From: Planctomycetota bacterium
GTDB lineage: Bacteria; Planctomycetota; Planctomycetia; Pirellulales; Lacipirellulaceae
Reading direction: 5' to 3'
Assembly (NCBI GenBank): GCA_003576855.1
Contig: QEVI01000012.1
Location: forward strand, 1 to 33,265
Length of the DNA: 33,265 nucleotides
Of the stretch, positions 12,237 to 32,681 are shown one piece after another. Both the position numbers and the translations under genes were made by a program. Numbering within the stretch: the stretch's first letter is position 1; every line of letters begins with the position of its first letter. The notes below the pieces were generated by a model that was not told the origin of the DNA, searched no databases, and saw nothing but the letters and a program-made list of their open reading frames with translations.

Positions 12237-12257
12237 TTCCGCTTTCCGCTTTCCGCC
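12237..12257 (+). repeat. Heptamer array upstream of thiL
   Basis: Three consecutive 7-base units, TTCCGCT with the last ending C, end 16 bases before the thiL ATG. No Shine-Dalgarno sequence follows. The sequence differs from the nuo arrays, but unit length and position are the same. Confidence 0.8.
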
Positions 12258-16920: not shown

Positions 16921-17000
16921 GTGTTTGGCTTCTACGGGTTCGTCGAGACACCGGAGGTTTCTCAGAACTCGGCAGAGCAGAAACCGTGCCTAACAGGCCG

Positions 17001-18017
17001 TCAAAGTCGCGGCTCGTACAGGCAGCAGTCATCGGGGCAGATGTCGTGACTGGGGCCAAGCTGGCCGAGGGCCGACCGTTGCGGCGCCTCGCTAAGCCGC
17101 TCGACGATGAGCTCGCGGATCATTTCAATGAAACGGCGGTGGTCGCCGACGGTTGCGGCCCGCTGCATGGGTACGCCTAACTTCTGGCAGACGGCCGCCG
17201 CCTCGATGTCCAGATCGTAGAGCACCTCCAGGTGGTCGGAGATAAACCCGATGGGGACGATCACCAGGTGCGGCAGCCGGCCGGCGGCGTGCAGCTCTTC
17301 GATGCGGCGGCAGACGTCGGGTTCCAACCAGGGCTGCTGGGGCGGTCCGCTGCGGCTCTGGTATACGAGTTCCCACTGGGCGGCGCCGGCGCCTTCCGCG
17401 ACCAGCCGGGAAGCCTCTTGGAGTTGGGCCTGGTAGGCGCAAGCCGTTGCCATCGCCAGGGGTATGCTGTGGGCGGAAAACAGCACGACGGCCCGGTTCC
17501 GCTGGTCGCCGGGCAACTTCGCCTGGCAACTGCGGAGCGACTCGACCATCGGTTCGATAAACCCGGGGTGGTTGAAAAAAGCCCGCAGTTTATCGACCTG
17601 AGGCGCCGCCGGACCGACCTGCTGCCGGGCGGCGGCGATGTTTTCGCGGTACTGCCGGCAACTGGAGTACGAGCTGTAAGCGCTGGTGAAAAAGCCCAAC
17701 GCCCGCCGGACGCCGTCGCGGGCCATTTGAGCCAACGCATCCGGCAACAGCGGGCGCCAATTGCGATTGCCCCAGTACACCGGCAGTCGGGGGCCGCAGG
17801 CATCAAGCCGTTGCTGCAACGCGGCCACGAGGCGGCGGTTCTGCTCGTTGATGGGGCTGACGCCGCCGAGGCGATAGTAATGCTCCGCGACTTCGAGCAT
17901 CCGCTCGCGCGGCACGGGCTTGCCCCGGAGCACGTTCTCCAGGAACGGCAGCACCTCGTCCGGTCCTTCGGGACCGCCAAACGAGACGACGAGAACCGCG
18001 TCGTACGAGGCTTGCAT
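17001..18017 (-). CDS. hemH: Ferrochelatase (possibly coproporphyrin type)
   Basis: 338 residues. Catalytic His183 in FSAHSIP and Glu264 in SDHLEVLYD fall at the same numbers as in the Bacillus enzyme. The N-terminus (AVLVVSFGGPEGPDEV, GGVSPINEQN) resembles actinobacterial/firmicute coproporphyrin ferrochelatases. The enzyme inserts Fe2+ into porphyrin for heme; whether the substrate is coproporphyrin III or protoporphyrin IX depends on a hemQ or hemG partner not seen here. The C-terminus ends with CPDDCC, a Cys cluster that could bind metal or an Fe-S cluster, though it does not match the well-known spacing. Three 7-base repeats sit directly before the ATG and there is no Shine-Dalgarno sequence. 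Confidence 0.95.
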   Translation of the reverse strand: MQASYDAVLVVSFGGPEGPDEVLPFLENVLRGKPVPRERMLEVAEHYYRLGGVSPINEQNRRLVAALQQRLDACGPRLPVYWGNRNWRPLLPDALAQMARDGVRRALGFFTSAYSSYSSCRQYRENIAAARQQVGPAAPQVDKLRAFFNHPGFIEPMVESLRSCQAKLPGDQRNRAVVLFSAHSIPLAMATACAYQAQLQEASRLVAEGAGAAQWELVYQSRSGPPQQPWLEPDVCRRIEELHAAGRLPHLVIVPIGFISDHLEVLYDLDIEAAAVCQKLGVPMQRAATVGDHRRFIEMIRELIVERLSEAPQRSALGQLGPSHDICPDDCCLYEPRL

Positions 18018-18019
18018 AT

Positions 18020-18100
18020 GGCTCAGGGTTCGAGGTTCAGAAAAAAAGACAGGAGTTCCTAGCGACGGCGTGAACCCCGAACCTCAACTGCTGAACCCTG
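18020..18100 (-). repeat. Inverted heptamer array between tRNA-Glu and hemH
   Basis: On the hemH strand, three heptamers (CTGAACC, then TCGAACC and CTGAGCC types, 18040-18020) end two bases before the ATG. On the opposite strand at 18070-18100, four related units lie in reverse-complement orientation. The two arms can pair over about 16 bases with four mismatches, the loop being the 29 bases between them. Confidence 0.75.
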
Positions 18101-18104
18101 CAAG

Positions 18105-18177
18105 TGACCCCGACGGGAATCGAACCCGTGTTACCGGCGTGAAAGGCCGGTGTCCTAGGCCGCTAGACGACGGGGCC
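18105..18177 (-). tRNA. tRNA-Glu (anticodon UUC)
   Basis: 73 bases on the minus strand. The acceptor GGCCCCG pairs with CGGGGTC (one G-T). The D arm contains TCTAGCGGCCTAGGA. The anticodon stem CCGGC/GCCGG holds the loop CTTTCAC with anticodon TTC (Glu). The T arm is CGGGT TCGATTC CCG. The discriminator is A and no CCA is encoded. It matches the bacterial tRNA-Glu layout, including the CACC...GGTAACA pattern around the anticodon arm. Besides translation, Glu-tRNA is the substrate for heme precursor synthesis, and hemH lies next to it, which may be coincidence. Confidence 0.95.
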
Positions 18178-18436
18178 GCACTTCGAAGAGCGATACATGC
18201 GCGCCTCGAAGCCAGACCGGTCATTGTGCGGGCGCGTGGCCGGCCGTCAAGGGCGAGAGTCGTGCGCGAAGCGGAGCGATCAACAATGGCGCCATGAAGG
18301 GGTTGGCGCGACGCCGCTCAGAGCGAAGAATGACGGAAGGTCGATTTGCCGGCGGCGACCTGCTGCTGTAAAGCAAAGAAAGGGAATCGGCGGGCGATCG
18401 AGCCCGAAGTGCGCGCGGGCCGAGGCTTGGGCGAAA

Positions 18437-18649
18437 CTACTCCGCGGCGCTGGCGTCAGCCTGTTGGGCCGAGCCGCCAGCCTGCTGGTTCCGACGGATC
18501 GCCTCGTAGACCTCGTTGCGATGTACGGGTACCTCTTTCGGGGCCTCGACCCCTAAGCGGACCTTGTCGCCCCGGATTTCCACGACGACGATCGTAATGT
18601 CATCGTTGATGACAATACTCTCGTTCTTCTTGCGGGACAGAACTAGCAT
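18437..18649 (-). CDS. csrA: Carbon storage regulator CsrA, copy 2
   Basis: 70 residues from the ATG at 18649, preceded by GAAGGAA about 8 bases upstream. A longer frame to 18820 adds 57 unrelated residues and is rejected. The sequence [40 protein letters not shown] is canonical, with VHR (R44 pocket) intact. The tail is Gln/Ala/Ser rich. Compared with copy 1 it is nearer to the textbook protein. The leader (about 137 bases from the predicted start point) contains GGA motifs in the Shine-Dalgarno region and about 40 bases upstream, so autoregulation by CsrA binding is possible. Confidence 0.95.
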
Positions 18650-18792
18650 CGGTCGATTCCTTCGCTGAGTTTGGGCCGGCCAGCCATCCACTGTAGCCGC
18701 CGTCGCCTGCCCGGTGTGATGTGCTGCGGGGCCGTGCTTGGGGCCCGGAAACACTGCCCTGGCCGGGGTTTGCTGCGCATTCCCCTCGTTCC

Positions 18793-18820
18793 ACTCTACG
18801 TGGTGAATGGGGCGAGTCAA
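18793..18820 (-). promoter_or_regulatory. Sigma70-type promoter of csrA copy 2
   Basis: On the minus strand, TTGACT (18820-18815), a 16-base spacer and TAGAGT (18798-18793). The predicted start near 18786 leaves a leader of about 137 bases. Confidence 0.5.
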
Positions 18821-19524
18821 GCAAAGCTACTACCTAGTCGGCCCATTTTTTGCTAGGCTGATGCGGTTTTTCCGCGGCGGAGGCGCCAATTACATCGATC
18901 GGAAGGGGCCGGCCAGCGGCGGAGGGGGACGACACAAGCCCGCTGCAAGCCCGTAAGTCTCGTAATAGAAAGCAGTTACGTCGCACAGCGGTCTCGCCGC
19001 CGGCCGTCTGTGCGTCGCGCCGGCTCCCATTTGGCTTCCATTCGGATATTGAGAGCCAATTTCTGCTGTGCGGAACGGCGCGCCGGCGGTGTGGCCAAAC
19101 CGCTCGGTCTGCACAACCGGTCACGGCAACTCCGCGGCACTAAGACGGACTTCCAGAGAGCTGAGAGCGCCTAACTGCCGGCTTTGGGCGCGATCGTGAA
19201 TAAGTCTTGAAGCGTTCGATGGCGTCGTTCGCCGCCCGGGCGTTGAGTGGCCGATCAAATGAACCGCCTGCTCTGGAGCGCGAGCCCTGCGGCGTGCTGC
19301 CTGACGTCGCGTAGCGGGCAAACCGAGTTAGCTATGGCGGCGAGCGACATGCGGCCCGCAGTCGCGGCCGGTTCTTTTGCCGCGCCCCCGCCAACGTGAG
19401 CATCGTCGAGCGAGGGAGCACGTTCGTAGCCGCCAACGCGGCGCGGGCCTGACGCTGCGGCCGGAGGATTGCAGCGACGCGGCCCCGGTAGCAGGCAGTA
19501 GCATTTGGCCGGCGCCAGAAGCGG

Positions 19525-19552
19525 TTGCGGCGGGGCCGCCCGATCATATAAT
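19525..19552 (+). promoter_or_regulatory. Sigma70-type promoter of the nuo cluster
   Basis: TTGCGG (19525-19530), a 16-base spacer and a perfect TATAAT (19547-19552). A start near 19559 leaves a leader of about 143 bases before nuoI. Confidence 0.6.
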
Positions 19553-19701
19553 TGCGGTTTCGACAGGCGCCGGCGGGCTTGATCGCAGCGGAAGCGGTGC
19601 AAGCGAGCGCCCAGCGGGGCTGCGGTGTTTCTTCTGTTTTGGCCGCCTGCCGTTCTCGCCACGGCGTGCTGGATGATGCCACCCAGGCTTAGAGTTCGCC
19701 C

Positions 19702-20250
19702 ATGATTGCTCGGCTGAAGCGCGGTTTCCCGTGGTTAGGGAATGTCGTGGAAGCGATTGCCACGGTCGGCTACGGCATGTGGGTGACGCTGCGGACGTGG
19801 ATCAAGACCTATCGCCCGGAACGAAAGACGTTCACCGAGCACTTCGCGTATCCGGAACTTCCGGCCCCGGTGGCGGCGCGCTACCGGGGGTTTCACCGAT
19901 TCGACCTGACGACGTGCATCGCGTGCGACCAGTGCGCGAAGGCCTGTCCGGTCGACTGCATCTACATCGGCAAGGAGCGGGTGCAAGGGAGCAAAGGGTT
20001 CAAGGTCACCGGCTATGCGATCGACTACAGCAAGTGCATGTTCTGCGCGCTGTGCGTCGAACCGTGCCCGGTAGACTGCATCTTCATGGGTGCAAGTCTC
20101 GATCTTAGCTGCTACAGCCGCGATGGATGCATCGTGGACTTCGCCCGCTTGCCGCTGGAGGTGGCCTGGGGGCGCGCGACGCTCAATCCCACGGCCGTGG
20201 CCCAGGCGAAGGTGATCACCGACCCGGTGCATGGCGGGCCGAACCAATAG
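19702..20250 (+). CDS. nuoI: NADH-quinone oxidoreductase subunit NuoI
   Basis: 182 residues. Two [4Fe-4S] motifs of the type CxxCxxCxxxCP are present, at Cys72/75/78/82 and Cys112/115/118/122. They carry clusters N6a and N6b, which pass electrons to NuoB. An amphipathic N-terminus (about 1-45) contacts the membrane arm. The gene order is unusual: nuoI comes first, before nuoA. No Shine-Dalgarno sequence is clear before the ATG. The cluster promoter lies at 19525-19552. The nuoA start is 91 bases after the stop. Confidence 0.95.
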   Translation: MIARLKRGFPWLGNVVEAIATVGYGMWVTLRTWIKTYRPERKTFTEHFAYPELPAPVAARYRGFHRFDLTTCIACDQCAKACPVDCIYIGKERVQGSKGFKVTGYAIDYSKCMFCALCVEPCPVDCIFMGASLDLSCYSRDGCIVDFARLPLEVAWGRATLNPTAVAQAKVITDPVHGGPNQ

Positions 20251-20308
20251 GATCGTTGTTTGGCCGTCGTCCGTAGCAGCGGCGTACGGCGTTCTCCTGT
20301 GAACAAGA

Positions 20309-20336
20309 ACTGATAACAGACCACCGACCACGGACG
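20309..20336 (+). repeat. Heptamer array upstream of nuoA
   Basis: Four 7-base units, consensus ACNGACC with degenerate outer units, end five bases before the nuoA ATG. A reverse-complement arm (GTCGTCCGT) lies at about 20265-20273. There is no Shine-Dalgarno sequence. Confidence 0.75.
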
Positions 20337-20341
20337 CCCGC

Positions 20342-21031
20342 ATGGCCACCCCCACCGCCATTGTCGCCTATCTCGGCCTGTTCGCCGGGGCCGCGGTGCT
20401 GTTTCTGTTTGCGAATTTGGTGATTGGCAAGCTGCTTCGACCGAAGGCGCCCAACGAGGAGAAGCTGGAGGTGTACGAGTGCGGCGAACCGACGATCGGT
20501 TCGAGCTTCGTGCAGTTCGACCTGCGGTTTTACGTCGTGGCGCTTTTGTTCATTATTTTCGACGTGGAAGTTGCGTTTTTCTTCCCGTGGGCGACGGTGT
20601 TCGGCAAGGCGACGCAACTGGCTTCGCCGAATATGCCGGTGCTCGCCTCGGATGTGGATCCGGCCGGCAGCCCGACGGAGCTGTCGCCGCAGGCGACGGA
20701 GCGGCTGCGGGAATTGGGCGTGAAGTCGCCGGCGCTGGCCGACCTGTCGGCCGAGCCAGCAGGGGGAGCGGCGGTTTCGGCTGAAGCCGGCGCCCAGGAG
20801 CGCAGCGTCGTGCAGGACGCAGCCCGGCGGATTGCCAAGGCGTCGATCTGGGACATCGGCGTGTTTTTCGCCGTGCTGATGGTGGGCTTCGCTTACGTGT
20901 GGCGGCGCGGCGACCTGGACTGGGTGCGCTCGACGCGGAGCCACCAGGGCGAAGTCGTCGAACGGGCGCCGGTGATTCTGGAAACGGAGCAGCGCACTTC
21001 GCGGCCGACCGGCTCGATACTCACGGCCTAG
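20342..21031 (+). CDS. nuoA: NADH-quinone oxidoreductase subunit NuoA with internal insertion
   Basis: 229 residues; NuoA is usually 115-150. TM1 is at about 8-30. The signature KLEVYECGEPTIGSSFVQFDLRFYVVALLFIIFDVEVAFFFPWA (about 41-84) is conserved and includes the Cys loop near the quinone site. Residues about 92-165 are an Ala/Glu/Pro-rich hydrophilic insertion before TM3 (DIGVFFAVLMVGFAYVWRRGDLDW), where the family normally has a short link. A further 30-residue tail follows. The reading frame is intact, so the insertion is probably real and disordered. The gene is followed by nuoC, not nuoB. The start is immediately preceded by heptamer repeats. Confidence 0.93.
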   Translation: MATPTAIVAYLGLFAGAAVLFLFANLVIGKLLRPKAPNEEKLEVYECGEPTIGSSFVQFDLRFYVVALLFIIFDVEVAFFFPWATVFGKATQLASPNMPVLASDVDPAGSPTELSPQATERLRELGVKSPALADLSAEPAGGAAVSAEAGAQERSVVQDAARRIAKASIWDIGVFFAVLMVGFAYVWRRGDLDWVRSTRSHQGEVVERAPVILETEQRTSRPTGSILTA

Positions 21032-21042
21032 GCGAATCCGTC

Positions 21043-21134
21043 GGTTGTCTGTCGTCCGTTGTCAGTTGCGAAAGACGGCGGCCAGTTTAGCATCCGGCAA
21101 CGGACCACGGACCACGGACCACGAACCACGGACA
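21043..21134 (+). repeat. Inverted heptamer array upstream of nuoC
   Basis: Right arm: five units at 21100-21134, three of them exactly ACGGACC, ending six bases before the nuoC ATG. Left arm: 21043-21068, reverse-complement heptamers (GTTGTC and GTCGTCC types). The arms pair over 26 bases with six mismatches, several of which are G-U in RNA. Loop about 40 bases. Confidence 0.8.
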
Positions 21135-21140
21135 ACCTCA

Positions 21141-21668
21141 ATGAGCGGACCTGCCTTCGTCGACCGGCTCAAGCAGCGTTTTGGCGACCTGATCATCGGC
21201 GCCAACCTGGAGAACATCGATCCTTGGATCGAAGTCGCCCCGGAAGGCATCGTGGCGGTTTGTAGGTATTTGCGCGACGAACCGGACCTGGCGTTCGATT
21301 ACTGCAACAGCGTCACGGCCGTTGATTATTTCCACGTGGACGAGAAGAAGGCCGCCAAGAGCGAGTGGTCGCCGCACCTCGAAGTCGTGTACCACCTCTT
21401 CAGCATGACGCACAAGCATAGCCTGGTGCTGAAGGTGATCTTGCCGCGTTGGAACGGCGAGCCGGGCGTGTTGCCGGAAGTACCCACCGTCTCGGGCGTC
21501 TGGAGCACCGCCGACTGGCATGAGCGGGAGTGCTACGACCTGTTGGGCGTCCACTTCACGGGCCACCCGAACCTGCGGCGGATCCTCTGCCCCGAGGACT
21601 GGGCGGGGCATCCCTTGCGGAAGGACTACGAGATGCCGCTGGAGTACCACGGTATTCGGGGAAGGTAG
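21141..21668 (+). CDS. nuoC: NADH-quinone oxidoreductase subunit NuoC
   Basis: 175 residues from the ATG at 21141. An upstream in-frame ATG at 21045 would translate the heptamer repeats (PRTTDHEPRTT) and is rejected. The 30-kDa-subunit signature is at the C-terminus: WHERECYDLLGVHFTGHPNLRRILCPEDW then GHPLRKDYEMP. NuoC packs against NuoD and NuoB in the hydrophilic arm and has no cofactor. It is a separate protein and not fused to NuoD as in E. coli. The 109-base spacer before it contains no nuoB, and a 301-base spacer follows before nuoD. Confidence 0.95.
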   Translation: MSGPAFVDRLKQRFGDLIIGANLENIDPWIEVAPEGIVAVCRYLRDEPDLAFDYCNSVTAVDYFHVDEKKAAKSEWSPHLEVVYHLFSMTHKHSLVLKVILPRWNGEPGVLPEVPTVSGVWSTADWHERECYDLLGVHFTGHPNLRRILCPEDWAGHPLRKDYEMPLEYHGIRGR

Positions 21669-21969
21669 GGCGGGCGCCGTGGAGAGGCGGCAGGCGTCGT
21701 AGGTCGCGGTTCATACCAAGACCACCGCCGATTCATCCGCATTTCCGGCGCCTTCATATACGAGACCAAACATTGGCTTCGGCGAGCGTACTGTCGAAAC
21801 CTATCAGCGCTGGCGCGGTCGAACGCCTTTGCCCGCTTATTGACGAATTGGCTCTAAAACTCAACAACTCCCTGTAGTCCCTCAGTAATCCGCGGATCGT
21901 CACATTCAATCGAGGGCGGCGGCGCCCCGCAACGGACCACAGATCACTGACCACTGACAACTAATCTCT
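21669..21969 (+). other. nuoC-nuoD spacer with heptamer array
   Basis: 301 bases. The right end (21932-21966) holds five 7-base units of the ACNGACC/ACTGACA type, ending three bases before the nuoD ATG, with no Shine-Dalgarno sequence. A weak reverse-complement arm may exist near 21884-21900. The rest shows no gene; short frames (for example one ending at 21877) have no family similarity. Confidence 0.65.
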
Positions 21970-23172
21970 ATGGCCATCGTCGACGACCCGCGCACCATTG
22001 AATTCGACGTCCGCACGGACGAGATGCTCGTGAACATGGGGCCGCAGCATCCGAGCACGCATGGCGTGCTGCGGCTGGTGCTACGGACCGACGGGGAGAT
22101 CGTTTCGGAGGTGACGCCGCATATCGGCTACCTCCACCGTTGCGCCGAGAAGATCGGCGAGAACCTCACGCCGCGGCAATGGATTCCGTACACCGATCGG
22201 ATGGACTACCTCGCCGCGATGAACATGAATCTCGGCTGGGCGCTGACGATCGAAAAGCTTTTGAAGTACGAGCCCCCCGAGAAGGGCCGGCACCTGCGGG
22301 TGATTATCGCCGAGCTGGGGCGGATCGCCAGCCACCTGGTCGGCATGGGGGCCTACGGGCTGGACTTGGGCACGTTTAGCCCGTTCTTGTACGCCTTCCG
22401 CGAGCGGGAAAAGATTCTCGATCTGTTCGAGGAGGCGTGCGGCGCCCGGCTCACGTACAGCTACATCACCGTCGGCGGGGCCACGGCGGATCTCCCGCCC
22501 GGGTGGCTGCCGAAGTGCGAAGCCTTTCTCGACGAGCTGGAGCCGATCATCGCCGAGTACCACGCGCTGCTGACCACCAATGCGATTTTCATCAAGCGCA
22601 CGGCCGGCGTGGGCGTCATGCCGGCGGCCCAGGCGATTGACTTCGGGACCAGCGGTCCGGTGCTTCGGGGCAGCGGCGTCGACCATGATCTTCGTCGCGA
22701 CGGCGAGGAAATCTACACGGCGATGTACGACGGCTACGCCTTCGAGGTGATCGCCGAAAAGAACGGCCACTATCCGAAGGACCACGATTATCCGGCCGTG
22801 CCGAAGGAAGCGGTCCTGGGCGACTGTTGGCACCGGTTTTACGTGCGGATGCTCGAGGTCGTCCAGTCGATCGACCTGGTGCGACAAAGCATCGACCGCT
22901 ACAGCCGCGCCAGCGGCAGCCACGGCGAACCGATGAAGTTGAACCAAAAGCTGCCCAAGGGGGAGGCGTACCTGGAAACCGAGGCCCCGCGGGGCCAGAT
23001 GGGCTTTTACGTCGTCAGCAACGGCGAGGCGATTCCGTGGCGAGCCCGCGCCCGCAGCAGCTCGTTCTGCAACTTGTCGGTCGCCACCGAGCTGTGCCGG
23101 GGCTGCCTGATCGCCGACGTCCCGGCGATCGTCGGATCGCTTGACATCGTGATGGGGGAGATTGACCGGTAG
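21970..23172 (+). CDS. nuoD: NADH-quinone oxidoreductase subunit NuoD
   Basis: 400 residues, normal length. MLVNMGPQHPSTHGVLRLVL (about 19-38) contains the conserved His of the quinone cavity. PHIGYLHRCAEKI, YTDRMDYLAAMNMN and the C-terminal DIVMGEIDR are the 49-kDa signatures. In the family a Tyr and His at the head of the cavity protonate quinone. NuoD needs NuoB for cluster N2, but no nuoB is adjacent. LHRCAEKI has Cys where many homologues have Gly. The start is placed right after a heptamer array. After the stop a 361-base spacer precedes nuoH. Confidence 0.96.
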   Translation: MAIVDDPRTIEFDVRTDEMLVNMGPQHPSTHGVLRLVLRTDGEIVSEVTPHIGYLHRCAEKIGENLTPRQWIPYTDRMDYLAAMNMNLGWALTIEKLLKYEPPEKGRHLRVIIAELGRIASHLVGMGAYGLDLGTFSPFLYAFREREKILDLFEEACGARLTYSYITVGGATADLPPGWLPKCEAFLDELEPIIAEYHALLTTNAIFIKRTAGVGVMPAAQAIDFGTSGPVLRGSGVDHDLRRDGEEIYTAMYDGYAFEVIAEKNGHYPKDHDYPAVPKEAVLGDCWHRFYVRMLEVVQSIDLVRQSIDRYSRASGSHGEPMKLNQKLPKGEAYLETEAPRGQMGFYVVSNGEAIPWRARARSSSFCNLSVATELCRGCLIADVPAIVGSLDIVMGEIDR

Positions 23173-23533
23173 CGAAGTAGCGGCGGGCGGACGCGAACAC
23201 GCAAGCGGTGATTGGCGCCGGCTGAGCATGCGGTCCAATCGACCCGCCGTCACCGGTCCTCACCTCATCTGGGCGCTCTACGGGCATTGGCCTGGCAATG
23301 ATTCCCGCGGCGGCTGATTGCACCGCCCTCATCGCCCCGGTTGAAGGCGAGACTGTAAAAAACCACGCGCCGGGGGGCTTGTTCCTGGGCCCAACTTTGT
23401 GCCATATTTCACAATCTTTGGTAGCACAGTAACTGCCGTTCGCTAAACGCCTTCTGCCGCAGGGGCGCGGCCTTCGCCATTCCGCCAGACCGCAGGAAGC
23501 CGTGCCGACTGCACGCGCGAGGATCGACTACCA
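23173..23533 (+). other. nuoD-nuoH spacer with CRP-like palindrome
   Basis: 361 bases without a gene. It contains the 18-base inverted repeat at 23397-23414 (see next entry) and, at 23519-23523, GAGGA ten bases before the GTG start of nuoH. Two weak -35/-10 candidates (for example TTGTTC at 23379, CATATT at 23403) suggest an internal promoter, but neither is strong. Confidence 0.5.
23397..23414. promoter_or_regulatory. CRP/FNR-family-like operator
   Basis: TTGTG, eight bases, CACAA: a perfect 5-base inverted repeat with the TGTG-N8-CACA spacing of CRP sites (right half TCACA). It overlaps a weak -10 candidate (CATATT at 23403), which would fit repression or site competition upstream of nuoH. 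Confidence 0.4.
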
Positions 23534-24841
23534 GTGGGCGCGTTCCTAGACAACTATCTGCCGAGCTGGCTGGCGTACACGCTGGCCGCGCTAGTGCACA
23601 TCTTCCTGCTGCTGAACCTGATCGCCGTCGGCGCGCTGGTGTTCATTTGGCTTGAGCGTAAGATCTCCGGCCGCATCCAAGACCGTCTCGGTCCGACGCG
23701 CGTGGGGGGCAAATTCGGCTGGCTGCAAACGCTGGCCGACGGGCTGAAGCTCATCACCAAGGAAGACTTGATGCCCGTCGGCGCCGATGCGCTGCTCTTT
23801 CGGGCGGCGCCGTATGTGAGCTTCGCCGCGAGCGTCACGGCGTTTATGGCGATACCGTTCGCCGGGGGCGCCTACCCGTGGGTGGCCCAACGGCTGAACA
23901 CGGGCGTGTTCTTCGTCATCGCCGTCATTGGCCTGGAAGTGTTCGGCGTCATTTTGGCGGGCTATAGCTCCGCGTCGAAGTGGTCGCTGTTCGGCGCGAT
24001 GCGCGAGGCGGCGCAAGTGGTGAGCTACGAAGTGCCGCTGGGCATGTGCGCGGTGGTGCCGGTGCTGCTGGCCGGGTCGATGGATTTGGTCGTCATCGGC
24101 GATCAGCAGGCCGGCTGGTTCACGAACTGGTTTTTGTTCAACGACCCGGCGACGTTCATCACGTTTTGGGTCTATTTCACGTGCGCCACGGCCAGCGTCA
24201 ATCGGGCGCCGTTCGACCTGGCCGAAGCGGAGAGCGAGCTGGTTGCCGGCTTCCACACGGAATACTCGGGTCTGCGGTGGAGCTTCTTCTTCATGGCCGA
24301 GTACGGGTCGATGCTATCGGTGAGCTTGTTAGCGTCGATTCTGTTTCTGGGCGGTTGGCATGGGCCGATCCCCGTCGCGTCGATGCTCGGGTTGACGTAT
24401 GAGAACGGAGCCGTCGCGGGCTACCTGGGCAATTTGCTGGGCTGCGTGAACATCCTGCTGAAGGGCGTGCTAGGCGTATCGGTGATGATGTGGGTCCGCT
24501 GGACGCTGCCGCGGCTGCGTATCGACCAGGTGATGACGACTTGCCTGAAGTACTGCACGCCCATTGCGGCGGCCATGTTTCTCGGCGCCATCATGTGGCA
24601 GTATTACCTGCCGCACCGCAATTTCTTCGGTCTGCTGCCCGCGAACGAGTCGGCCTACGCGGTTCATGAAGGGTGGGCCGACCAGGAGGGGATCTCCTCG
24701 GCGGGCGCCGTCAACATGGTCGAGGCGGCTGACGATTCGCGGGGGGGGTTGGCAGTTGAGGGCGCCGGCTCCGCGGCGCTGTTGTTCGATCCGGCGACGC
24801 CGAGTACATCGCATGTCGCCAGTGCAGAAAGGGGCGGCTGA
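23534..24841 (+). CDS. nuoH: NADH-quinone oxidoreductase subunit NuoH
   Basis: 435 residues from a GTG with GAGGA ten bases upstream; the family is usually 320-360. ERKISGRIQDRLGPTRVG (41-58) and NRAPFDLAEAESELVAGFHTEYSG are the ND1 signatures, the second with the acidic loop that links the quinone channel to the proton path. About eight membrane helices are visible. The last ~65 residues (after YYLPHRNFFG) form a hydrophilic, Ala/Glu-rich tail not usual in the family. It lies two bases before nuoJ, so coupling is likely. Confidence 0.95.
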   Translation: MGAFLDNYLPSWLAYTLAALVHIFLLLNLIAVGALVFIWLERKISGRIQDRLGPTRVGGKFGWLQTLADGLKLITKEDLMPVGADALLFRAAPYVSFAASVTAFMAIPFAGGAYPWVAQRLNTGVFFVIAVIGLEVFGVILAGYSSASKWSLFGAMREAAQVVSYEVPLGMCAVVPVLLAGSMDLVVIGDQQAGWFTNWFLFNDPATFITFWVYFTCATASVNRAPFDLAEAESELVAGFHTEYSGLRWSFFFMAEYGSMLSVSLLASILFLGGWHGPIPVASMLGLTYENGAVAGYLGNLLGCVNILLKGVLGVSVMMWVRWTLPRLRIDQVMTTCLKYCTPIAAAMFLGAIMWQYYLPHRNFFGLLPANESAYAVHEGWADQEGISSAGAVNMVEAADDSRGGLAVEGAGSAALLFDPATPSTSHVASAERGG

Positions 24842-24843
24842 CC

Positions 24844-25440
24844 ATGGAGCCCATCTACTGGCCGTCGTTCTTTTTTTACCTGTTCGCGATTCTCGCGTGC
24901 GGATTCGCCGTCGCGGTGCTGCTATCGGCGAACATCGTCCGCATGGCTTTCTACCTGGTGCTGTCGCTGGCGGCTACGAGCGGGCTGTTCTTCTTGGCCG
25001 GCCAGGAGTTCATCGGCGCGATGCAGCTCTTGATTTACGTCGGCGGCACGCTGGTGCTGCTGGTCTTTGGCGTCATGCTCACTTCCCAGGAGCGGTTCGT
25101 CAGCATGAAGACCATGAGCGGCGATTGGTTCATCGGGCTGATGGCCGGCGGGGCGTTGCTCAGCTTGCTGGCGGCCGCGGCGTTCAGCGTGCCCCAGTGG
25201 GGCAGCCCCGATCGCGCCGCCGTCGAGAACTTGCCGGTGCAGAAGACGGCCGCTCCGATCGCCATGGGGCTGCTGGGGGCTCGCGTCGATCAGCCGGGGC
25301 CGGACGAGCCGCAACGCGGCGTCATGTCTGGATACCTGCTCCACTTTGAGATCGTCTCGGTACATTTGCTCGTCGTCCTGGTCGGGGCCGCCTACTTGGC
25401 TCGGGCCAAACGCAAGACCGCGCCGGCGCCCGGCGTTTAA
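24844..25440 (+). CDS. nuoJ: NADH-quinone oxidoreductase subunit NuoJ
   Basis: 198 residues. Four helices come first, with the characteristic FIGAMQLLIYVGGTLVLLVFGVML (about 56-79) corresponding to the pi-bulge helix of ND6. A hydrophilic stretch at about 120-160 (PVQKTAAP, DQPGPDEPQ) separates the last helix (HFEIVSVHLLVVLVGAAYLARAKRK). The protein is part of the membrane arm and moves during the coupling cycle. It follows nuoH after two bases and precedes nuoK by 28 bases. Confidence 0.95.
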   Translation: MEPIYWPSFFFYLFAILACGFAVAVLLSANIVRMAFYLVLSLAATSGLFFLAGQEFIGAMQLLIYVGGTLVLLVFGVMLTSQERFVSMKTMSGDWFIGLMAGGALLSLLAAAAFSVPQWGSPDRAAVENLPVQKTAAPIAMGLLGARVDQPGPDEPQRGVMSGYLLHFEIVSVHLLVVLVGAAYLARAKRKTAPAPGV

Positions 25441-25468
25441 CATCGCACACCAGCCGCCCTGCCCTGTC

Positions 25469-25831
25469 ATGAACTCGACGTTCCATTTGGCCAACTTGCT
25501 GACGGAGCCGCCCGGCATCGCCCATTTCATGACGGTCGGCGCGGTGCTGTTCGTTTGCGGGGCGATGTGCATGGCCACCAAGCGCAACGCCCTAGGCGTG
25601 CTGATGGGCATCGAACTGGTGCTCAACGGCGCGAACATGAACTTCGTCGCCTTCGGCAGCCAGTATTTGCAGAATGGGGGCGAGTATTTGGGCCTCGACG
25701 GCCCGCTGATGGCGCTGTTCGTGATCGTGCTGGCGGCGGCCGAGGCGGCCGTGGCGTTGGCCATCGCGCTGAATTTTTACAACAACCACGACTCGATCGA
25801 CGTCGATCGGGCTGACCAATTGCAGGGGTAG
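25469..25831 (+). CDS. nuoK: NADH-quinone oxidoreductase subunit NuoK
   Basis: 120 residues from the ATG at 25469; an upstream in-frame start at 25346 overlaps nuoJ and lacks similarity. Three helices, with the two conserved buried Glu residues in MGIELVLNGANMNFVAF and AAAEAAVALAIAL, which are required for proton transfer in E. coli. The N-terminus (NSTFHLANLLTEPPG) is about 20 residues longer than in E. coli. nuoL follows after 13 bases. Confidence 0.95.
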   Translation: MNSTFHLANLLTEPPGIAHFMTVGAVLFVCGAMCMATKRNALGVLMGIELVLNGANMNFVAFGSQYLQNGGEYLGLDGPLMALFVIVLAAAEAAVALAIALNFYNNHDSIDVDRADQLQG

Positions 25832-25844
25832 CCTCGAAACACTG

Positions 25845-28271
25845 ATGGACGCATCCGCCCTACCCACGCTGCTGGCCATCGCCTGGTTGACGCCGTTGGC
25901 GTCGTTCACGGTGATCGTGCTCTTGGGCAAGTCGCTGGGGCCCCACGGCAAATACGCCGGCTACATTTCGGTCGGCGCGATCCTGGTGAGCACGGTGATG
26001 AGTCTGGTCGCCCTGTTCGGCGCCTGGCTGCCGAACCATCCGTTGGCCGACGCGTCGCATCACGGGGCGAGCTACGAGGCGGGCGCTCACGGATCTTCTT
26101 CGCCAAACGCCCACTCCGGCGACTCGCACGCCGACGGCCGCGCGGCCGATGCGCACGCTGCTGACGCCCACGCCGCCGACGAAGCCCATGAAAGCGAAAA
26201 GCCCGCCTACTACGGCGATTGGTACGCGCTGGGCCAGTGGGGCAAGCTGAAGCTCACGATCGGCTATTACATCGACGCCCTCACGGTGACGATGTTCTCG
26301 ATGGTGTCGCTGATCGCCGCGTGCGTGCATGTCTATGCCCTGGGCTACATGCACGACGAGCTGCACGACCCGTACGTCGATCATGAAGTCCACGTCCACG
26401 ATGGCGGCCACCTCCACCGCCCGGGGCGATTCCACCGCTTCTTCCAGTACTTGTCGCTGTTCAGCTTCAGCATGCTGGGGCTGGTGATCGCCGGCAACGT
26501 GGCGATGGTGTTCGTCTTCTGGGAGCTGGTCGGCATCTGTTCGTACTTTCTCATCGGTTTTTACATCGAGCGGCAGAGCGCCAGCAACGCGGCGAACAAG
26601 GCGTTCATTACCAACCGCGTTGGCGACTTCGGCATGCTCATCGGCATGATGGCCCTGTGGGCGAGCCTCGGCACGTTCGCCTTCGGCGACCTGACGACGC
26701 CCGACGGCCAAACCGAACTGGGCATTTTCAGTCGTCTCCGCACCGCGGAAAACGATCATCGCCTCGTGCCCCCGCCGGAGATGGTAGCCGAGGGGGAGCG
26801 GACGTTTGCGTCGACGGAAACGACCGGGGACGGCGGCAGTAACGCGGGTCATTGGCTGCTGTTCATCGCTGGGGTGGGCATCTTCTGCGGGTGCGTCGGC
26901 AAGAGCGCCCAGTTCCCGCTCCACGTCTGGTTGCCGGACGCGATGGAGGGGCCGACGCCCGTCTCGGCGCTGGTTCATTCGGCGACGATGGTCGCCGCTG
27001 GCGTGTACCTGGTGGGCCGTTTTTATCCGGCGTTTTCGCCCGAGGCGCTGTTGGTGATCGCGGTCGTCGGCTGCATCACGCTGACGATCGCCGCGACGAT
27101 CGCCATTACCGCCGTAGACATCAAGCGGGTCTTGGCCTACTCGACCGTGAGCCAGCTCGGCTACATGATGCTGTCGCTCGGGCTGGGGGGCTGGGCGGCC
27201 GGCTTGTTTCACCTCGTCACGCACGCCTTTTTCAAGAGCCTGCTGTTTCTTTGCTCAGGATCGGTGATTCACGCCGTCCACAGCAACGACATGCGCGAGA
27301 TGGGCGGCCTGCGCCGGAAAATGCCGATTACCGCTTACACGATGCTCGTGGGGTGCCTGGCGATCATCGGCGCCGGCATCCCACTCACCGCGTTCGGCCT
27401 CAGCGGGTACTACTCGAAGGACGCCATCGTCGAGCAGGCCTGGAGCTTCGCCGAGACCAACAAGGGCGCGTATTGGCTGCTGCTGGCCATGCCGGTGGTC
27501 GGTGCGGCGATGACGGCGTTTTACATGTTCCGCCTGTGGTACATGACGTTCGCCGGCAAGCCGCGGAACCATCACCGGTACGACCACGCCCACGAGTCGC
27601 CCGCGGTGATGACGCGACCGCTATTGCTCCTGGCGTTTTTTGCAATTGCGGTCGGATGGACCGTACCGCTGACCAATCTGAGCGTCACTAACCTGCTGCA
27701 CCAGGCCGAGCCTGCTGGCATCGCCGCCACGAGCCACGGCGTGCTTTTGCCGTCGCTGACCGTCCCGGCCGAGGCGCTCAGCCACGCCCCGGAGATCAAG
27801 TTTAAGGCCGGGCTGGCCGCCTTCGGCGCCGCGATGACCGGCCTGCTGGCGGCCACGGTGATTTACCTTTGGAACACGTTGAACCCGGCCGAGATTCGGC
27901 AGACCTTTCAGCCGGTTTACCGGCTGCTGTGGAACAAGTGGTACTTCGACGAGTTGTATAGCGCGGCGTTGATTCGGCCGACGATGGCCTTGGGACGACG
28001 GATCGCGGCGTTTGACCGCGCCGTCATCGACGAGCTGATCCACGGGCTGGCCTGGCTTTCCCGCGGCGTGTCGAAGGTGTTCGGCGTGCTTTTCGACCAG
28101 ACCGTCGTCGACGGCACGGTGAACACGTTCGCGGATTGGACCTGGGACTTCGGCCTGCTGCTCCGCCGCCTGCAGACCGGGAGCGTGCGGCAATACGTGT
28201 TATTCATCGTCGCCGGCACCCTGGTGCTGTTCGTCGCGGTATCGACCGTGCAATGGCTGGCCTATAGCTAG
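25845..28271 (+). CDS. nuoL: NADH-quinone oxidoreductase subunit NuoL with His-rich loops
   Basis: 808 residues; the family is usually 610-650. The antiporter core is complete: FVFWELVGICSYFLIGFY (Glu227), KSAQFPLHVWLPDAMEGPTPVSALVHSATMVAAGVYLVGR, DIKRVLAYSTVSQLGYM, and a long amphipathic lateral helix with terminal helix at the C-terminus. Two hydrophilic insertions near the N-terminus are unusual: residues 65-120 with repeated AADAHAAD units and about ten His, and 170-198 (HDELHDP, DHEVHVHDGGHLH) with nine His. Such His/Asp loops could bind metal. The reading frame is intact. It is preceded by nuoK and followed by a heptamer array and nuoM. Confidence 0.95.
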   Translation: MDASALPTLLAIAWLTPLASFTVIVLLGKSLGPHGKYAGYISVGAILVSTVMSLVALFGAWLPNHPLADASHHGASYEAGAHGSSSPNAHSGDSHADGRAADAHAADAHAADEAHESEKPAYYGDWYALGQWGKLKLTIGYYIDALTVTMFSMVSLIAACVHVYALGYMHDELHDPYVDHEVHVHDGGHLHRPGRFHRFFQYLSLFSFSMLGLVIAGNVAMVFVFWELVGICSYFLIGFYIERQSASNAANKAFITNRVGDFGMLIGMMALWASLGTFAFGDLTTPDGQTELGIFSRLRTAENDHRLVPPPEMVAEGERTFASTETTGDGGSNAGHWLLFIAGVGIFCGCVGKSAQFPLHVWLPDAMEGPTPVSALVHSATMVAAGVYLVGRFYPAFSPEALLVIAVVGCITLTIAATIAITAVDIKRVLAYSTVSQLGYMMLSLGLGGWAAGLFHLVTHAFFKSLLFLCSGSVIHAVHSNDMREMGGLRRKMPITAYTMLVGCLAIIGAGIPLTAFGLSGYYSKDAIVEQAWSFAETNKGAYWLLLAMPVVGAAMTAFYMFRLWYMTFAGKPRNHHRYDHAHESPAVMTRPLLLLAFFAIAVGWTVPLTNLSVTNLLHQAEPAGIAATSHGVLLPSLTVPAEALSHAPEIKFKAGLAAFGAAMTGLLAATVIYLWNTLNPAEIRQTFQPVYRLLWNKWYFDELYSAALIRPTMALGRRIAAFDRAVIDELIHGLAWLSRGVSKVFGVLFDQTVVDGTVNTFADWTWDFGLLLRRLQTGSVRQYVLFIVAGTLVLFVAVSTVQWLAYS

Positions 28272-28342
28272 GGGCCAGCGGTCAGCTACGCCGAGCCTGA
28301 CTCTGACCTCTGAACCCTGAACCCTGACCCCTGACCTCTGCG
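28271..28342 (+). repeat. Inverted heptamer array upstream of nuoM
   Basis: Right part: six 7-base units of the CYCTGAM type at 28301-28342, three bases before the nuoM ATG. Left arm: GGGGCCAGCGGTCAG at 28271-28285, beginning on the last base of the nuoL stop codon; it is largely complementary to the CTGACCCCTGACCTC stretch. No Shine-Dalgarno sequence. Confidence 0.75.
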
Positions 28343-28345
28343 TCA

Positions 28346-30193
28346 ATGAACCTCAGCGACCCCATAGCCTATCTCAGCCTGATGGTGTTTTTGCCGGCGC
28401 TTGGCGCGCTGGTGTTGGCGTTCTTTCCGCGCGGGCGGGAGGACGCCATCAAGTTCACCGCCTTGGGCTTCACCATTTTCACGTTCATGCTCACGCTCGG
28501 CATGCTCATGGAGGACGCCGGCGGAGTGAACTTCGAGGCTGGCGCCGCCGAGATGCAGAATCTGTTTTCGGCCGCGTGGATTCCCTCGTTCGGCATCCAG
28601 TACCTGATGGGGCTGGACGGCATCAGCTTTCCCCTGGTAGTGCTGACCGCGTTCCTGAGCGTGCTTGCGATGGTCGCCAGTTGGCCGATCACGAAGCACG
28701 TCAAGGCGTACTGCATTTTGTTCTTGCTGTTGGAAACGGGAATGATCGGCGTCTTCATGGCGCTGGACTTCTTCCTGTTCTACGTCTTTTGGGAAGTCAT
28801 GCTCCTGCCGATGTACTTTCTCATCGGCGTGTGGGGCGGCCCGCGCAAGGAATACGCGGCGATCAAGTTCTTCCTGTATACGCTGGTCGGCAGCGTGCTG
28901 ATGCTGATCGCGATTTTGATGCTCTACTTCAACAGCGACCTCACGCTGCTCAATTCGCAGCAACTGGCCGACGCCGGCATCTTCGCCGTCGCCGCCGAGG
29001 GCGGCAATCCGCAAACGGTCGAGCAGGCCTATCAGGCGTGGCTGGCTAGCGACGACGACACGGCCCGCCGGTTCCAGGAGATCCAGGCCGAGACGAACCC
29101 GGCTCGTCGGCGGCAGCTTCACACGTTCAACATCCTCGCGCTGCAGCAAATGGGGCAGCTTGAAAACAGCCCCTTTAGCCAGAACGTCTGGCTCGGCCGC
29201 AGCATTCAGTGGTGGGCCTTCTTGCTGCTGCTGATCGGTTTCATCATTAAGGTGCCCAGCGTGCCGCTCCACACGTGGTTGCCCGACGCCCACGTCGAGG
29301 CGCCGACGCCGATCTCGATGATCCTGGCCGGCGTGCTGCTGAAGATGGGCGGCTATGGCATCATCCGCATCTGTTACCCGATCTGCCCGGCGGCGGCCTA
29401 CGAGCTGGCGTACGTCGTCTGCGGCATCGGCGTCGTCAGCATGGTGTGGGGGGCCTTCGCGGCGCTGGCGCAGAACGACTTCAAGCGCATGGTGGCGTAC
29501 AGCTCGGTGAGCCACATGGGCTACGTCGTGCTGGGGCTGGGCGTCTGGAGCCTGGGCATGTGGACGGCCGGCCCGGGCGGTTCGGCCACATACAATGCCG
29601 ATTACTGGAAGATGGGCGTCACCGGCGCCATGTACCAGATGATCGCTCATGGCATTAGCTCGGCCGGCATGTTTTTCTGCGTCGGCGTCCTGTACGACCG
29701 GGTCCATCACCGCAACCTCAACGAGTTCGGCGGCATCTTCGGCCGCATGCCGGTGTACGCCGGCATGGCCGTGGCGATCTTCTTCGCCGGCCTTGGCTTG
29801 CCAGGGCTGTGCGGGTTTATCGGCGAAGTGTTCGTCGTGCTCTCGGTGTGGAAGTACAGCCAACTGCTGGCGGTCGTCTCGGCAGCCGTAGTAATTCTGA
29901 CAGCCGGATACATTCTGTGGGCCATCCAGCGGGTTTACCTGGGCGCGGAATACCGCGGCCCGCATGGCGAGGCTCTCACGCCGATGACCGTGCGCGAAAT
30001 GGCGGTCGCGATTCCGCTGGTGGTGTTTGCGATCGTCTTCGGCGTGTATCCGCCGAGCCTGCTGAATTACATGCAGCCGTCGATCGACCGCCAGGTCGAA
30101 ACGCTGGCCGCGTGGACGGAGCGGTACGACGCCGACCGCGAAGCGCTGCAAAACACGCTCAACAACGACCAGGAGCAAGTCGCCGCCAAATAA
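28346..30193 (+). CDS. nuoM: NADH-quinone oxidoreductase subunit NuoM with insertion
   Basis: 615 residues; the family is usually about 500. FYVFWEVMLLPMYFLIG (Glu150) and IKVPSVPLHTWLPDAHVEAPTPISMILAGVLLKMGGYG (Lys302) are the proton-channel signatures, and FKRMVAYSSVSHMGYVVLG follows. Residues about 197-287 are a hydrophilic insertion (NPQTVEQAYQAWLASDDDTARRFQEIQ and after) between membrane helices, with helical character. The C-terminus adds an acidic 35-residue tail. The insertion is in frame and amphipathic, so it is probably a folded accessory segment. A pair of GC hairpins follows the stop. Confidence 0.95.
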   Translation: MNLSDPIAYLSLMVFLPALGALVLAFFPRGREDAIKFTALGFTIFTFMLTLGMLMEDAGGVNFEAGAAEMQNLFSAAWIPSFGIQYLMGLDGISFPLVVLTAFLSVLAMVASWPITKHVKAYCILFLLLETGMIGVFMALDFFLFYVFWEVMLLPMYFLIGVWGGPRKEYAAIKFFLYTLVGSVLMLIAILMLYFNSDLTLLNSQQLADAGIFAVAAEGGNPQTVEQAYQAWLASDDDTARRFQEIQAETNPARRRQLHTFNILALQQMGQLENSPFSQNVWLGRSIQWWAFLLLLIGFIIKVPSVPLHTWLPDAHVEAPTPISMILAGVLLKMGGYGIIRICYPICPAAAYELAYVVCGIGVVSMVWGAFAALAQNDFKRMVAYSSVSHMGYVVLGLGVWSLGMWTAGPGGSATYNADYWKMGVTGAMYQMIAHGISSAGMFFCVGVLYDRVHHRNLNEFGGIFGRMPVYAGMAVAIFFAGLGLPGLCGFIGEVFVVLSVWKYSQLLAVVSAAVVILTAGYILWAIQRVYLGAEYRGPHGEALTPMTVREMAVAIPLVVFAIVFGVYPPSLLNYMQPSIDRQVETLAAWTERYDADREALQNTLNNDQEQVAAK

Positions 30194-30258
30194 GCCGGCG
30201 CGACGATCGCCGCCGGCCGGCATCGCCCCCAGACATTTAGCCGCGGCGTTCACGCCGC
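30194..30258. repeat. Two GC hairpins between nuoM and nuoN
   Basis: Hairpin 1: GCCGGCG (30194-30200) with CGCCGGC (30211-30217), ten-base loop, starting at the nuoM stop. Hairpin 2: GCGGCG (30243-30248) with CGCCGC (30253-30258), TTCA loop. There is no T-run, so these are repeat elements or mRNA stabilisers rather than terminators. Confidence 0.6.
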
Positions 30259-30292
30259 GCCCACAGGCCCATCCCCCTAAGAGCCCCGCGCA

Positions 30293-32056
30293 GTGAACCT
30301 GCCTACGTTAATCGACTCGCTGATTTCCGACACCGTCCAGCGGAGCTTGCCGCTTTTCGGGCCGGAACTGGCGCTGTGCGCGACGATCGTGCTGCTGCTT
30401 CTGGCGCGGGTGATTCCGGTGGTCGATCAGATACCGCCGCTGGTGATTGCGCTGGTCGGCGCCGTCGTCGCCTTGGTGGCGGCGATACCCCGCGAAGGGA
30501 TGGCAGGGCTCGCGGCGATTGAACGCCAGGAGCTGTTCACCGGCATGCTCGTCTACGACGCGCTCACGGTGTACCTGCGGCTCTTTCTGACGGCGTTTGC
30601 CGTGCTGTTCGTCATCCTGTCGCGGCTCACGGGCATTGCGGATCGGCAGGACGGCCAGGATTACTACGCGCTGGTGCTGGGCGCCACGATCGGCATGTGC
30701 ATCATGGCGTCGGCCAATCACCTGCTCTCGCTGTTCTTGGGCGTTGAAATGGCGAGCGTGCCGTCGTATGTGCTGGCGGGGATCGTCAAAGGCCGGCGGC
30801 GCAGCAGCGAGGCGGCCCTCAAGTACGCCGTCTACGGAGCGGGCGCGGCGGGCATCATGCTGTATGGGGTGAGCCTGATTGCGGGACTGCTCGGCTCGGC
30901 CCACATTCCGACGATGGCGCAGCGGCTGGTCGAGTTCGACGTCGCGGCGAAGCTAGCCGACCGGGATTACACGGTGATGGTTCTCGCCTTGGGCGGCCTC
31001 ATGGTGGGCGTCGGGCTGGCGTTCAAGCTGTCCGCCGTGCCGTTTCATTTTTGGTGCCCCGACGTGTTTGAAGGCGCATCGGCGGAGATCGGCGGATTTC
31101 TGTCGGTGGCGTCGAAGGCGGCGGCGCTGGCGCTATTGGTGCGGGTGGGCATTGGGTTCACCGAGGCGCCCCAGCACGGCGCCGAGCCGCCGCGCCAGCC
31201 GGTGGCCGCGGCCGCCGCGAGCTTCGCGACCCCGCCTGCCATCCGCATGGTTGCAGCAACTAACGGCGACGAGCGCTTGGCTCAAGCGGACGGGCAGGCG
31301 GGTCGTTCAAGCGACCAGACCATCGAACGCGCGGGTTCCGCCGCTGAGGGCTCGCCGCTTTCGCCGGTCCGCACGTTTTTTGTTTCCGTTGTTGCCGCCG
31401 TCGCGATCATCACGTGCACCTTCGGCAACCTTGCCGCTTACGGCCAAAAGAACATCAAGCGGCTCCTGGCGTATTCGACGATCGCCCATGCGGGGTACAT
31501 GATGATGCCGGTGGCGGCGGCGATTGCCCTTGCCGGCGACAATCCGGCGGCCGCCTCCGATGCGATCGCCGCTCTGCTGCTCTATGCGACGATCTATTTG
31601 TTCATGAACCTCGGGGCGTTTGCGATCGTGGCGTTTTTGCGGAACGCGATGCAAAGCGAAGAAATCAAGGACTACGCGGGCCTGGTGAGCCGGGCGCCGA
31701 TGATCGCCGTGGCGATGACGGTGATTCTGTTCAGCTTGGTCGGCTTGCCGCCGCTGGCCGGGTTCTGGCCAAAGCTGCGACTGTTGCAAGCGTTGTACGA
31801 GGCGGGCGGGTCGCTATTGATGTTCGCCCTGGTGGTCGCGGCCATCAACACGGCCATTTCGCTGGTGTACTACGCCCGCGTGGCCAAGACGATGTGTATT
31901 GACCCCCAGCCCGACACCAGCCGCCCGGTCCAACTGGGGTTCTTGCCGACGACCTTCGTGTTCGCCATGGCGCTGCCGGTGGCCATTTTGGGCGTTCTGC
32001 CGGAACTGGTGGCGCCGTGGACTCGCGACGCCGCCGCCGGGCTGTTCGGCGTTTGA
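30293..32056 (+). CDS. nuoN: NADH-quinone oxidoreductase subunit NuoN with insertion
   Basis: 587 residues from a GTG; the family is usually 480-500. LFLGVEMASVPSYVLAG (Glu152), AFKLSAVPFHFWCPDVFEGAS, and QKNIKRLLAYSTIAHAGYMMM are the antiporter signatures. Residues about 290-357 (bases 31160-31364) form a hydrophilic, low-complexity insertion (PPRQPVAAAAAS, NGDERLAQADGQAGRSSDQ) between helices. Its DNA contains two palindromes (31274-31288 and 31301-31316), pointing to insertion of a repeat element. The frame is preserved. NuoN is the last recognised complex I gene here. The GTG has no clear Shine-Dalgarno sequence. Confidence 0.95.
   Translation: MNLPTLIDSLISDTVQRSLPLFGPELALCATIVLLLLARVIPVVDQIPPLVIALVGAVVALVAAIPREGMAGLAAIERQELFTGMLVYDALTVYLRLFLTAFAVLFVILSRLTGIADRQDGQDYYALVLGATIGMCIMASANHLLSLFLGVEMASVPSYVLAGIVKGRRRSSEAALKYAVYGAGAAGIMLYGVSLIAGLLGSAHIPTMAQRLVEFDVAAKLADRDYTVMVLALGGLMVGVGLAFKLSAVPFHFWCPDVFEGASAEIGGFLSVASKAAALALLVRVGIGFTEAPQHGAEPPRQPVAAAAASFATPPAIRMVAATNGDERLAQADGQAGRSSDQTIERAGSAAEGSPLSPVRTFFVSVVAAVAIITCTFGNLAAYGQKNIKRLLAYSTIAHAGYMMMPVAAAIALAGDNPAAASDAIAALLLYATIYLFMNLGAFAIVAFLRNAMQSEEIKDYAGLVSRAPMIAVAMTVILFSLVGLPPLAGFWPKLRLLQALYEAGGSLLMFALVVAAINTAISLVYYARVAKTMCIDPQPDTSRPVQLGFLPTTFVFAMALPVAILGVLPELVAPWTRDAAAGLFGV
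31274..31316. repeat. Two palindromes inside the nuoN insertion
   Basis: First: CGCTTG (31274-31279) and CAAGCG (31283-31288), GCT loop. Second: GGTCG (31301-31305) and CGACC (31312-31316), TTCAAG loop. The second resembles the core of the palindrome at 13757-13782 (GGTCGCTTAAGCGAC). Confidence 0.7.
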
Positions 32057-32104
32057 GAGTCGATGCTTGGCTAATTGTAACCCCGCTCAGCGAAAAGACC
32101 GATC

Positions 32105-32587
32105 GTGCCTGCCGCCCTACTTGACGACGCTCGCGCCACCCGCATGAAAGCTGACGCCATCCATTGGCTGAATCGCCTGCTGGCCATTCACTGCAAGTCG
32201 TTTCCGCAGTATTTGCAGTGGTCGCGGCCGCATGTGCCTGCCGGCCGCGGCGAGGAGCTGGAAGCGATCCGTGCCATCGCCGCGGACCAGGATGCGCTGG
32301 CCGATCGGATCAGCCGGATGATCATCGACGCGGACGCCCTGCCCCGCAGCGGTGAATTCCCCATGGAGTTCACCGACATGCACGATCTGGACATCGACTA
32401 TCTCATTCGTGCGGCGGTCGGCTACCAGCAGCAGGATGTCAAGGTGATTGAACGCCTGGTCGAACGTTTGGAGACCGCCCCGGCGGCCCGGGCGATCGCC
32501 GAAGAGGCGCTCGGCATGGCCAAGGGGCACCTCGAGACGCTCCGCGAACTGGCGAAGCCCCGCCCCCACAAGCCCGCCGGCGCCTAG
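32105..32587 (+). CDS. Small helical protein, possibly ferritin-like; function unknown
   Basis: 160 residues from a GTG at 32105; an ATG at 32144 is an alternative start with the same frame. No known motif is certain. The sequence is almost entirely helical by pattern: HWLNRLLAIHCKSFPQYLQW, GEELEAIRAIAADQDALADRISRMI, DYLIRAAVGYQQQDVKVIERLVERLE and ARAIAEEALGMAKGHLETLRELA. Four helices with scattered Glu, His and Asp suggest a four-helix-bundle or ferritin-like fold, but I cannot identify metal-ligand pairs with confidence. It follows nuoN by 48 bases and may be co-transcribed. Cytoplasmic by composition. Confidence 0.75.
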   Translation: MPAALLDDARATRMKADAIHWLNRLLAIHCKSFPQYLQWSRPHVPAGRGEELEAIRAIAADQDALADRISRMIIDADALPRSGEFPMEFTDMHDLDIDYLIRAAVGYQQQDVKVIERLVERLETAPAARAIAEEALGMAKGHLETLRELAKPRPHKPAGA

Positions 32588-32681
32588 CGGCGGCCGACGT
32601 GTGCGCCGCCACATGCGCTCGTAACAAAACGCGTCCCAGCCGCGCGACCTAGCCACGTCGGGGCCGTAGCACGCCAGCGCC

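Follow-up and report, generated by a model that had tools for sequence, protein, structure and literature searches.

The analysed window, 33,265 nt read on the forward strand, is contig C7 from the fragmented, 5.1 Mb genome of a planctomycete and carries a nuo operon, the subunits of which were confirmed by Pfam. In the nuoA-nuoC gap, a G/T-rich left arm (21040-21073, + strand) starts 8 nt past the nuoA stop codon and pairs at 26 of 34 positions with an A/C-rich right arm (21086-21119, +), a register as good as which was found in none of 500 dinucleotide shuffles. An array of ACGGACC heptamers (21100-21130, +, by our own scan; 21100-21133 with period 7 by TRF) stops 10 nt short of the nuoC ATG at 21141. 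Four ANGGA cores, at 21100, 21107, 21114 and 21128, were seen in the right-arm region. An earlier note on this DNA had described arms at 21043-21068 and 21112-21137 that pair at 20 of 26 positions, and had counted several of the remaining positions as G-U pairs. The recount reproduced 20/26 exactly, in a register poorer than the one given above; one of the six mismatches is a T opposite G (G-U), and the rest are C-C, C-A, two U-C and A-G, so the statement about several G-U pairs did not stand. The fold of the nuoC leader, a check that the note had proposed, was more stable than its shuffled controls (z -2.4; 2 of 200 shuffles equally stable).

On the minus strand, tRNA-Glu(TTC) lies directly 5' of hemH, encoding ferrochelatase, on the same strand (18017-18177). 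The hairpin between them has a 5' G/T-rich arm, GGTTCGGGGTTCA (18071-18083, -), and a 3' A/C-rich arm, TGAACCTCGAACC (18027-18039, -), which precedes hemH. The arms pair at 12 of 13 positions (0/500 dinucleotide shuffles as good), and the leader fold has a z of -2.7 with 1 of 200 shuffles equally stable, which confirms the inverted pair claimed at this locus. An Rfam 15 scan of 17000-33265 with E up to 1 returned the tRNA at 18105-18177 as its sole match. Haem synthesis by the C5 pathway has Glu-tRNA as its first substrate. A csrA-type gene (PF02599, 6e-27) was also observed near tRNA-Glu and hemH, at 18437-18649 (-), and proteins of the CsrA family have reportedly been put forward as binders of heptamers.

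The other sites in the window gave weaker results. A left arm immediately past the nuoL stop codon (28273-28285, +) pairs at 11 of 13 positions with 28324-28336, which lies within a CTGAACC/CTGACCC array (28301-28340, +; TRF and own scan) that ends 5 nt before the nuoM ATG at 28346. The pairing claimed for nuoM is weaker than those at nuoC and hemH (5/500 dinucleotide shuffles as good) and marginal; the leader fold has a z of -1.6, and 13 of 200 shuffles are as stable. The arms claimed upstream of nuoA (20263-20274 and 20330-20341, both +) pair at 10 of 12 positions, which 116 of 500 dinucleotide shuffles matched. As the leader fold, proposed as a check, has a z of -0.07 with 87 of 200 shuffles equally stable, this hairpin is not above chance in the own genome; relatives carry hairpins in the same gap. 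An A/C-rich heptamer array in the nuoC-nuoD gap (21935-21962, +; TRF period 7), before the nuoD ATG at 21970, is unpaired, and the search for its partner arm gave none that was significant (338/500 shuffles). In a divergent gap, our own scan found a TTCCGCT array (12237-12256, +) 17 nt before a called + strand gene. The argument from the same geometry at several loci against chance was upheld: nuoC and hemH each have 0/500 shuffles as good, and the pattern is general across the genome.

Genes were called with a small in-house hexamer-based caller in 1.09 Mb of the own genome, about a fifth of one incomplete genome, and the gaps were scanned for arrays at all periods of 4 to 13 nt with an array threshold of 10. 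The 694 intergenic regions held 47 period-7 arrays versus 0-10 for the other periods, and the same scan on ten shuffles gave 0-3 period-7 arrays. Some contigs had been selected by pattern match; when these and the window were excluded, the remaining, unselected contigs held 23 period-7 arrays versus 0-7 at other periods, with 21 of 586 gaps (~4%) containing one. Period 7 likewise prevailed in G003, a complete genome of the same genus (12 arrays versus 0-5), and among 80 nuoC loci of Planctomycetes from GTDB genomes (19 versus 0-7), and the phenomenon is present in Lacipirellula relatives and other Pirellulales. The heptamer words vary from locus to locus (53 word-by-source entries from the own genome, G003 and the 80 loci), and certain words are common to dispersed loci. 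Very long simple heptamer arrays of ~160-218 bp with CTGCCAA/TGACAAC-type units were seen in other Pirellulales (L191 1339-1556, L190 1472-1630 and L185 1-163), as would be expected from growth by slippage. Period 8 is the second commonest array period in the own genome, and a convergent 228-nt gap there (L053 12712) has CCATAGTC units opposite a long CCGTGGGA/CCGTAGGA array, with an apparent 8-nt period.

The proposed arrangement of heptamer arrays, in inverted pairs close to stop and start codons, was borne out across the genome. Among 33 candidate facing pairs, arm identity was 0.835 in register versus 0.64 at ±7 and 0.54 at ±14. Paired arms beat unit-permuted arms in 19/19 tested cases, an outcome favoured by the best register having been picked beforehand. 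Arrays also occur singly, A/C-rich ones before starts especially. In co-directional gaps, 18 of 22 paired cases lie closer to the stop, the arms beginning a median of ~5 nt after it and often ending ≤15 nt from the next start. A/C-rich arrays were nearer the start in 36/46 cases, with 28 within 25 nt of it, and G/T-rich arrays nearer the stop in 16/21 (Fisher P = 3.5 × 10−5; P = 0.0012 in unselected data). Since the two strands of a palindrome read identically, "G/T arm first" amounts to a single rule and not to two. A general base-composition bias was rejected as the source of the polarity, array-free gaps showing almost no skew.

Strong inverted repeats, defined by a score of 14 or more whether or not heptamers are present, were found in 63/808 co-directional, 24/148 convergent and 0/58 divergent gaps; co-directional and convergent gaps together (87/956) differ from divergent ones at P = 0.005, with few divergent and convergent gaps scored. 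The absence from divergent gaps is not absolute, since one of 274 nt (L069 17283-17556), which has heptamer ends, lies beyond the size range scored. In a 400 kb stretch of G003 (L161-L180), 28 convergent gaps were scored; 18 of them contain a strong inverted repeat, and several of these repeats belong to one GGGGCTCCGCCCGGGG family. Many gaps of the own genome (L030 9536, L014 2335, L147 4635, L053 8429 and others) contain a second dispersed intergenic hairpin, the arms of which resemble CTCTCGCAGAGGCGCAGAG...CTCTGCGCCTCTGCGAGAG and are not strictly of period 7.

Judged by NuoC, Lacipirellula limnantheis I41 is among the nearest named relatives, and orthologous gaps were compared in five Lacipirellula genomes, the own genome, G003 and three others (G002, G004 and G005). 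In the nuoI-nuoA gap, G003 has a hairpin of the GTCAGTT type, G002 and G004 have one of the GTAAGTGAGT type, G005 has arrays that differ between the two sides, and the own genome has a degenerate version. The nuoA-nuoC gap holds a GTCAGTT-type hairpin in the own genome and G003 and a single arm in G005; it is 7 nt long with no element in G002 and G004. Orthologous nuo gaps thus retain the site of the element while exchanging its word, or have lost the element, and the leaders are not alignable. Before nuoD, A/C-rich arrays recur at one and the same site in several relatives. One G003 element has ~90 matches in G003 and 84 in G002, both complete genomes, many of them as arm pairs. Its neighbour in the same operon has the core in common (83% identity over 105 nt), and most other matches comprise the arms only. 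The element is thus dispersed, labile and not bound to particular genes.

Taken together, we consider the structures at nuoC, hemH and nuoM to be probably (at roughly 0.6) abundant, fast-turning intergenic quasi-palindromes whose arms are heptamer arrays shaped by 7-nt slippage and arm homogenisation, and not start-occluding switches of nuo or hemH. Arrays would lengthen by replication slippage in steps of 7 nt. Between inverted arrays that face each other, strand switching templated by the hairpin could copy one arm onto the other and keep the palindrome symmetrical; template switching between inverted repeats is known to homogenise arms (PMC8604942). Copies or words may also spread between loci, by conversion or by some form of mobilisation. 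The elements might persist where they do little harm, or where they help as REP-like hairpins behind a cistron, with putative roles in mRNA 3'-end protection or processing. Slippage and template switching would thereby explain the period, the mirror symmetry and the turnover without selection on the RNA. Unpaired arrays need another explanation.

The earlier note had proposed a switch in which the fold hides the start codon until a signal opens it, and the nuoC and hemH leaders do out-fold their shuffles. In the minimum-energy folds at nuoC and nuoM, however, the AUG lies outside the stem, and across the 22 paired leaders the start region was unpaired slightly more than in shuffled controls (0.46 versus 0.41, P = 0.016). 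Nor was conserved gene-specific switching supported in the genus, whose nuo leaders lack the element, carry other words or have one arm only, and Rfam matches nothing besides the tRNA. Such a switch is therefore highly improbable. Intrinsic termination between subunit genes, also suggested for these hairpins, would fit their clustering behind stop codons and between convergent genes, and Xanthomonas heptamer repeats able to form G-quadruplexes coincide with transcript starts or stops above controls (PMC4692102). Against it, no T run of 4 or more was found in the 10 nt after the 3' arm in any of the 22 paired leaders, which leaves room for termination that needs no U-tract, and the hairpins interrupt the genes of the nuo operon; we regard terminators as very unlikely. 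A similarly low probability applies to REP elements mobilised by a RAYT (Y1) transposase. The palindromes are dispersed and placed like REPs, and Y1_Tnp genes occur in 5/5 Lacipirellula genomes, but no heptamer array lies within ~1.5 kb of eight Y1_Tnp genes, the copies have arms in common and rarely a core, and period-7 units and long simple arrays are unlike REP units.

The main rival to slippage and homogenisation is a selected, sequence-agnostic intercistronic hairpin, since these two processes alone leave the polarity and the recurrence of A/C-rich arrays before nuoD unexplained; both of these hint at selection. A stop-to-start hairpin could loop out the gap and couple the downstream start or protect the upstream mRNA 3' end, the helix being selected and not its sequence. 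The positions of the arms, starting a median of ~5 nt past the stop and often ending within 15 nt of the next start, would suit such a device, as would the slightly more open start regions, the 12 of 22 paired leaders that fold with a z below -2, and the nuoI-nuoA gaps of four relatives, which hold hairpins or arrays with different words. Strong hairpins are common in convergent gaps too, where there is no downstream start, the nuoA-nuoC gap of L. limnantheis is merely 7 nt long and holds no element, and RNA-level selection through G-U pairs on the sense strand was not supported, as wobble pairs were not enriched there (15 sense versus 15 antisense). A device of this kind is, on balance, unlikely. 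Distinctly unlikely is its stricter form, in which a stop-to-start helix would be kept at given operon gaps such as nuoI-nuoA while the word is swapped on both arms, with the G/T arm 5' and the A/C arm start-proximal, so that only geometry and polarity would be inherited. Two candidate properties of the arrays were also rejected. Stops in all three frames, considered as what selection might act on in the A/C arrays, were found in 9 of 46 versus 4.7 expected, which is suggestive only, and most words lack them. CsrA sites (ANGGA), considered as the feature common to the arrays, were found in 4 of 46 arrays versus 0.4 expected and are enriched in one word class only; they are not general, because the own nuoC leader contains four whereas its counterparts in G005, G002 and G004 contain none. 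For practical purposes, leaders of this type should not be read one by one as gene-specific riboregulators.

Set against known systems, the planctomycete elements have their closest precedent in the inverted GGGAATC heptamer pairs of Xanthomonas. These number 70-75 facing pairs per genome, with a strong bias to positions right behind stop codons and a lower frequency in divergent gaps; array lengths vary between close species, and the pair or single type is mostly retained (PMC4692102). Both systems comprise intergenic 7-nt arrays that form facing inverted pairs near the upstream stop and are rarer in divergent gaps. They differ in that one word dominates there whereas dozens occur here, and in that most planctomycete words lack the G-tracts of the GGGAATC repeat; among the 53 word-by-source entries, a search for GGGAATC or GGGANTN found none that is GGGAATC. 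The planctomycete arrays are polar, and in the portion of the Xanthomonas account consulted no polarity towards start codons is reported. Relative to the precedents in the open-access literature, the many words, the polarity and the phylum are new. Inverted heptamer pairs, known as a one-word oddity of Xanthomonas, are thus shown to occur in another phylum, where each genome has many words and the polarity is consistent. The word can therefore be separated from the geometry, and two old questions become testable: why the unit is seven, and whether bacterial intergenic palindromes are kept by mutation, that is slippage plus homogenisation, or by selection for a hairpin.

Other systems resemble the arrays in part. 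Each REP element is a single unit of 20-40 bp with a GTAG or CGTC tag; many are RAYT-linked, and they lie behind coding regions and are transcribed as hairpins (PMC3733652). The planctomycete elements are, like them, dispersed intergenic palindromes downstream of coding regions, with none in the 58 divergent gaps; unlike REPs, they have a variable core flanked by arms made of heptamer arrays. The eight Y1_Tnp loci held no transposase gene flanked by heptamer arrays. By eye, some G003 elements were noticed to have CGTC close to their start. Quasipalindromes that template switching corrects also have short inverted-repeat arms that are homogenised, yielding mirrored arms without RNA selection, but their description includes neither period-7 arrays nor the genome-wide abundance seen here (PMC8604942, PMC7202029). 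The TAACTGA direct repeats of Beggiatoaceae, Cyanobacteria and Bacteroidetes lie in fixed orientation a few nt before starts, rarely within ORFs, and target no functional class of genes (PMC4679880). They are matched here by the A/C-rich arrays before starts in fixed orientation, and differ in having a single word and only one inverted pair, where many words and frequent pairs are found here; TAACTGA itself is absent from the own words and was seen once among the 80 nuoC loci, at the Pirellulales locus L251. The planctomycete arrays thus unite the stop-side placement of the Xanthomonas pairs with the start-side placement of the TAACTGA repeats, and do so with many words.
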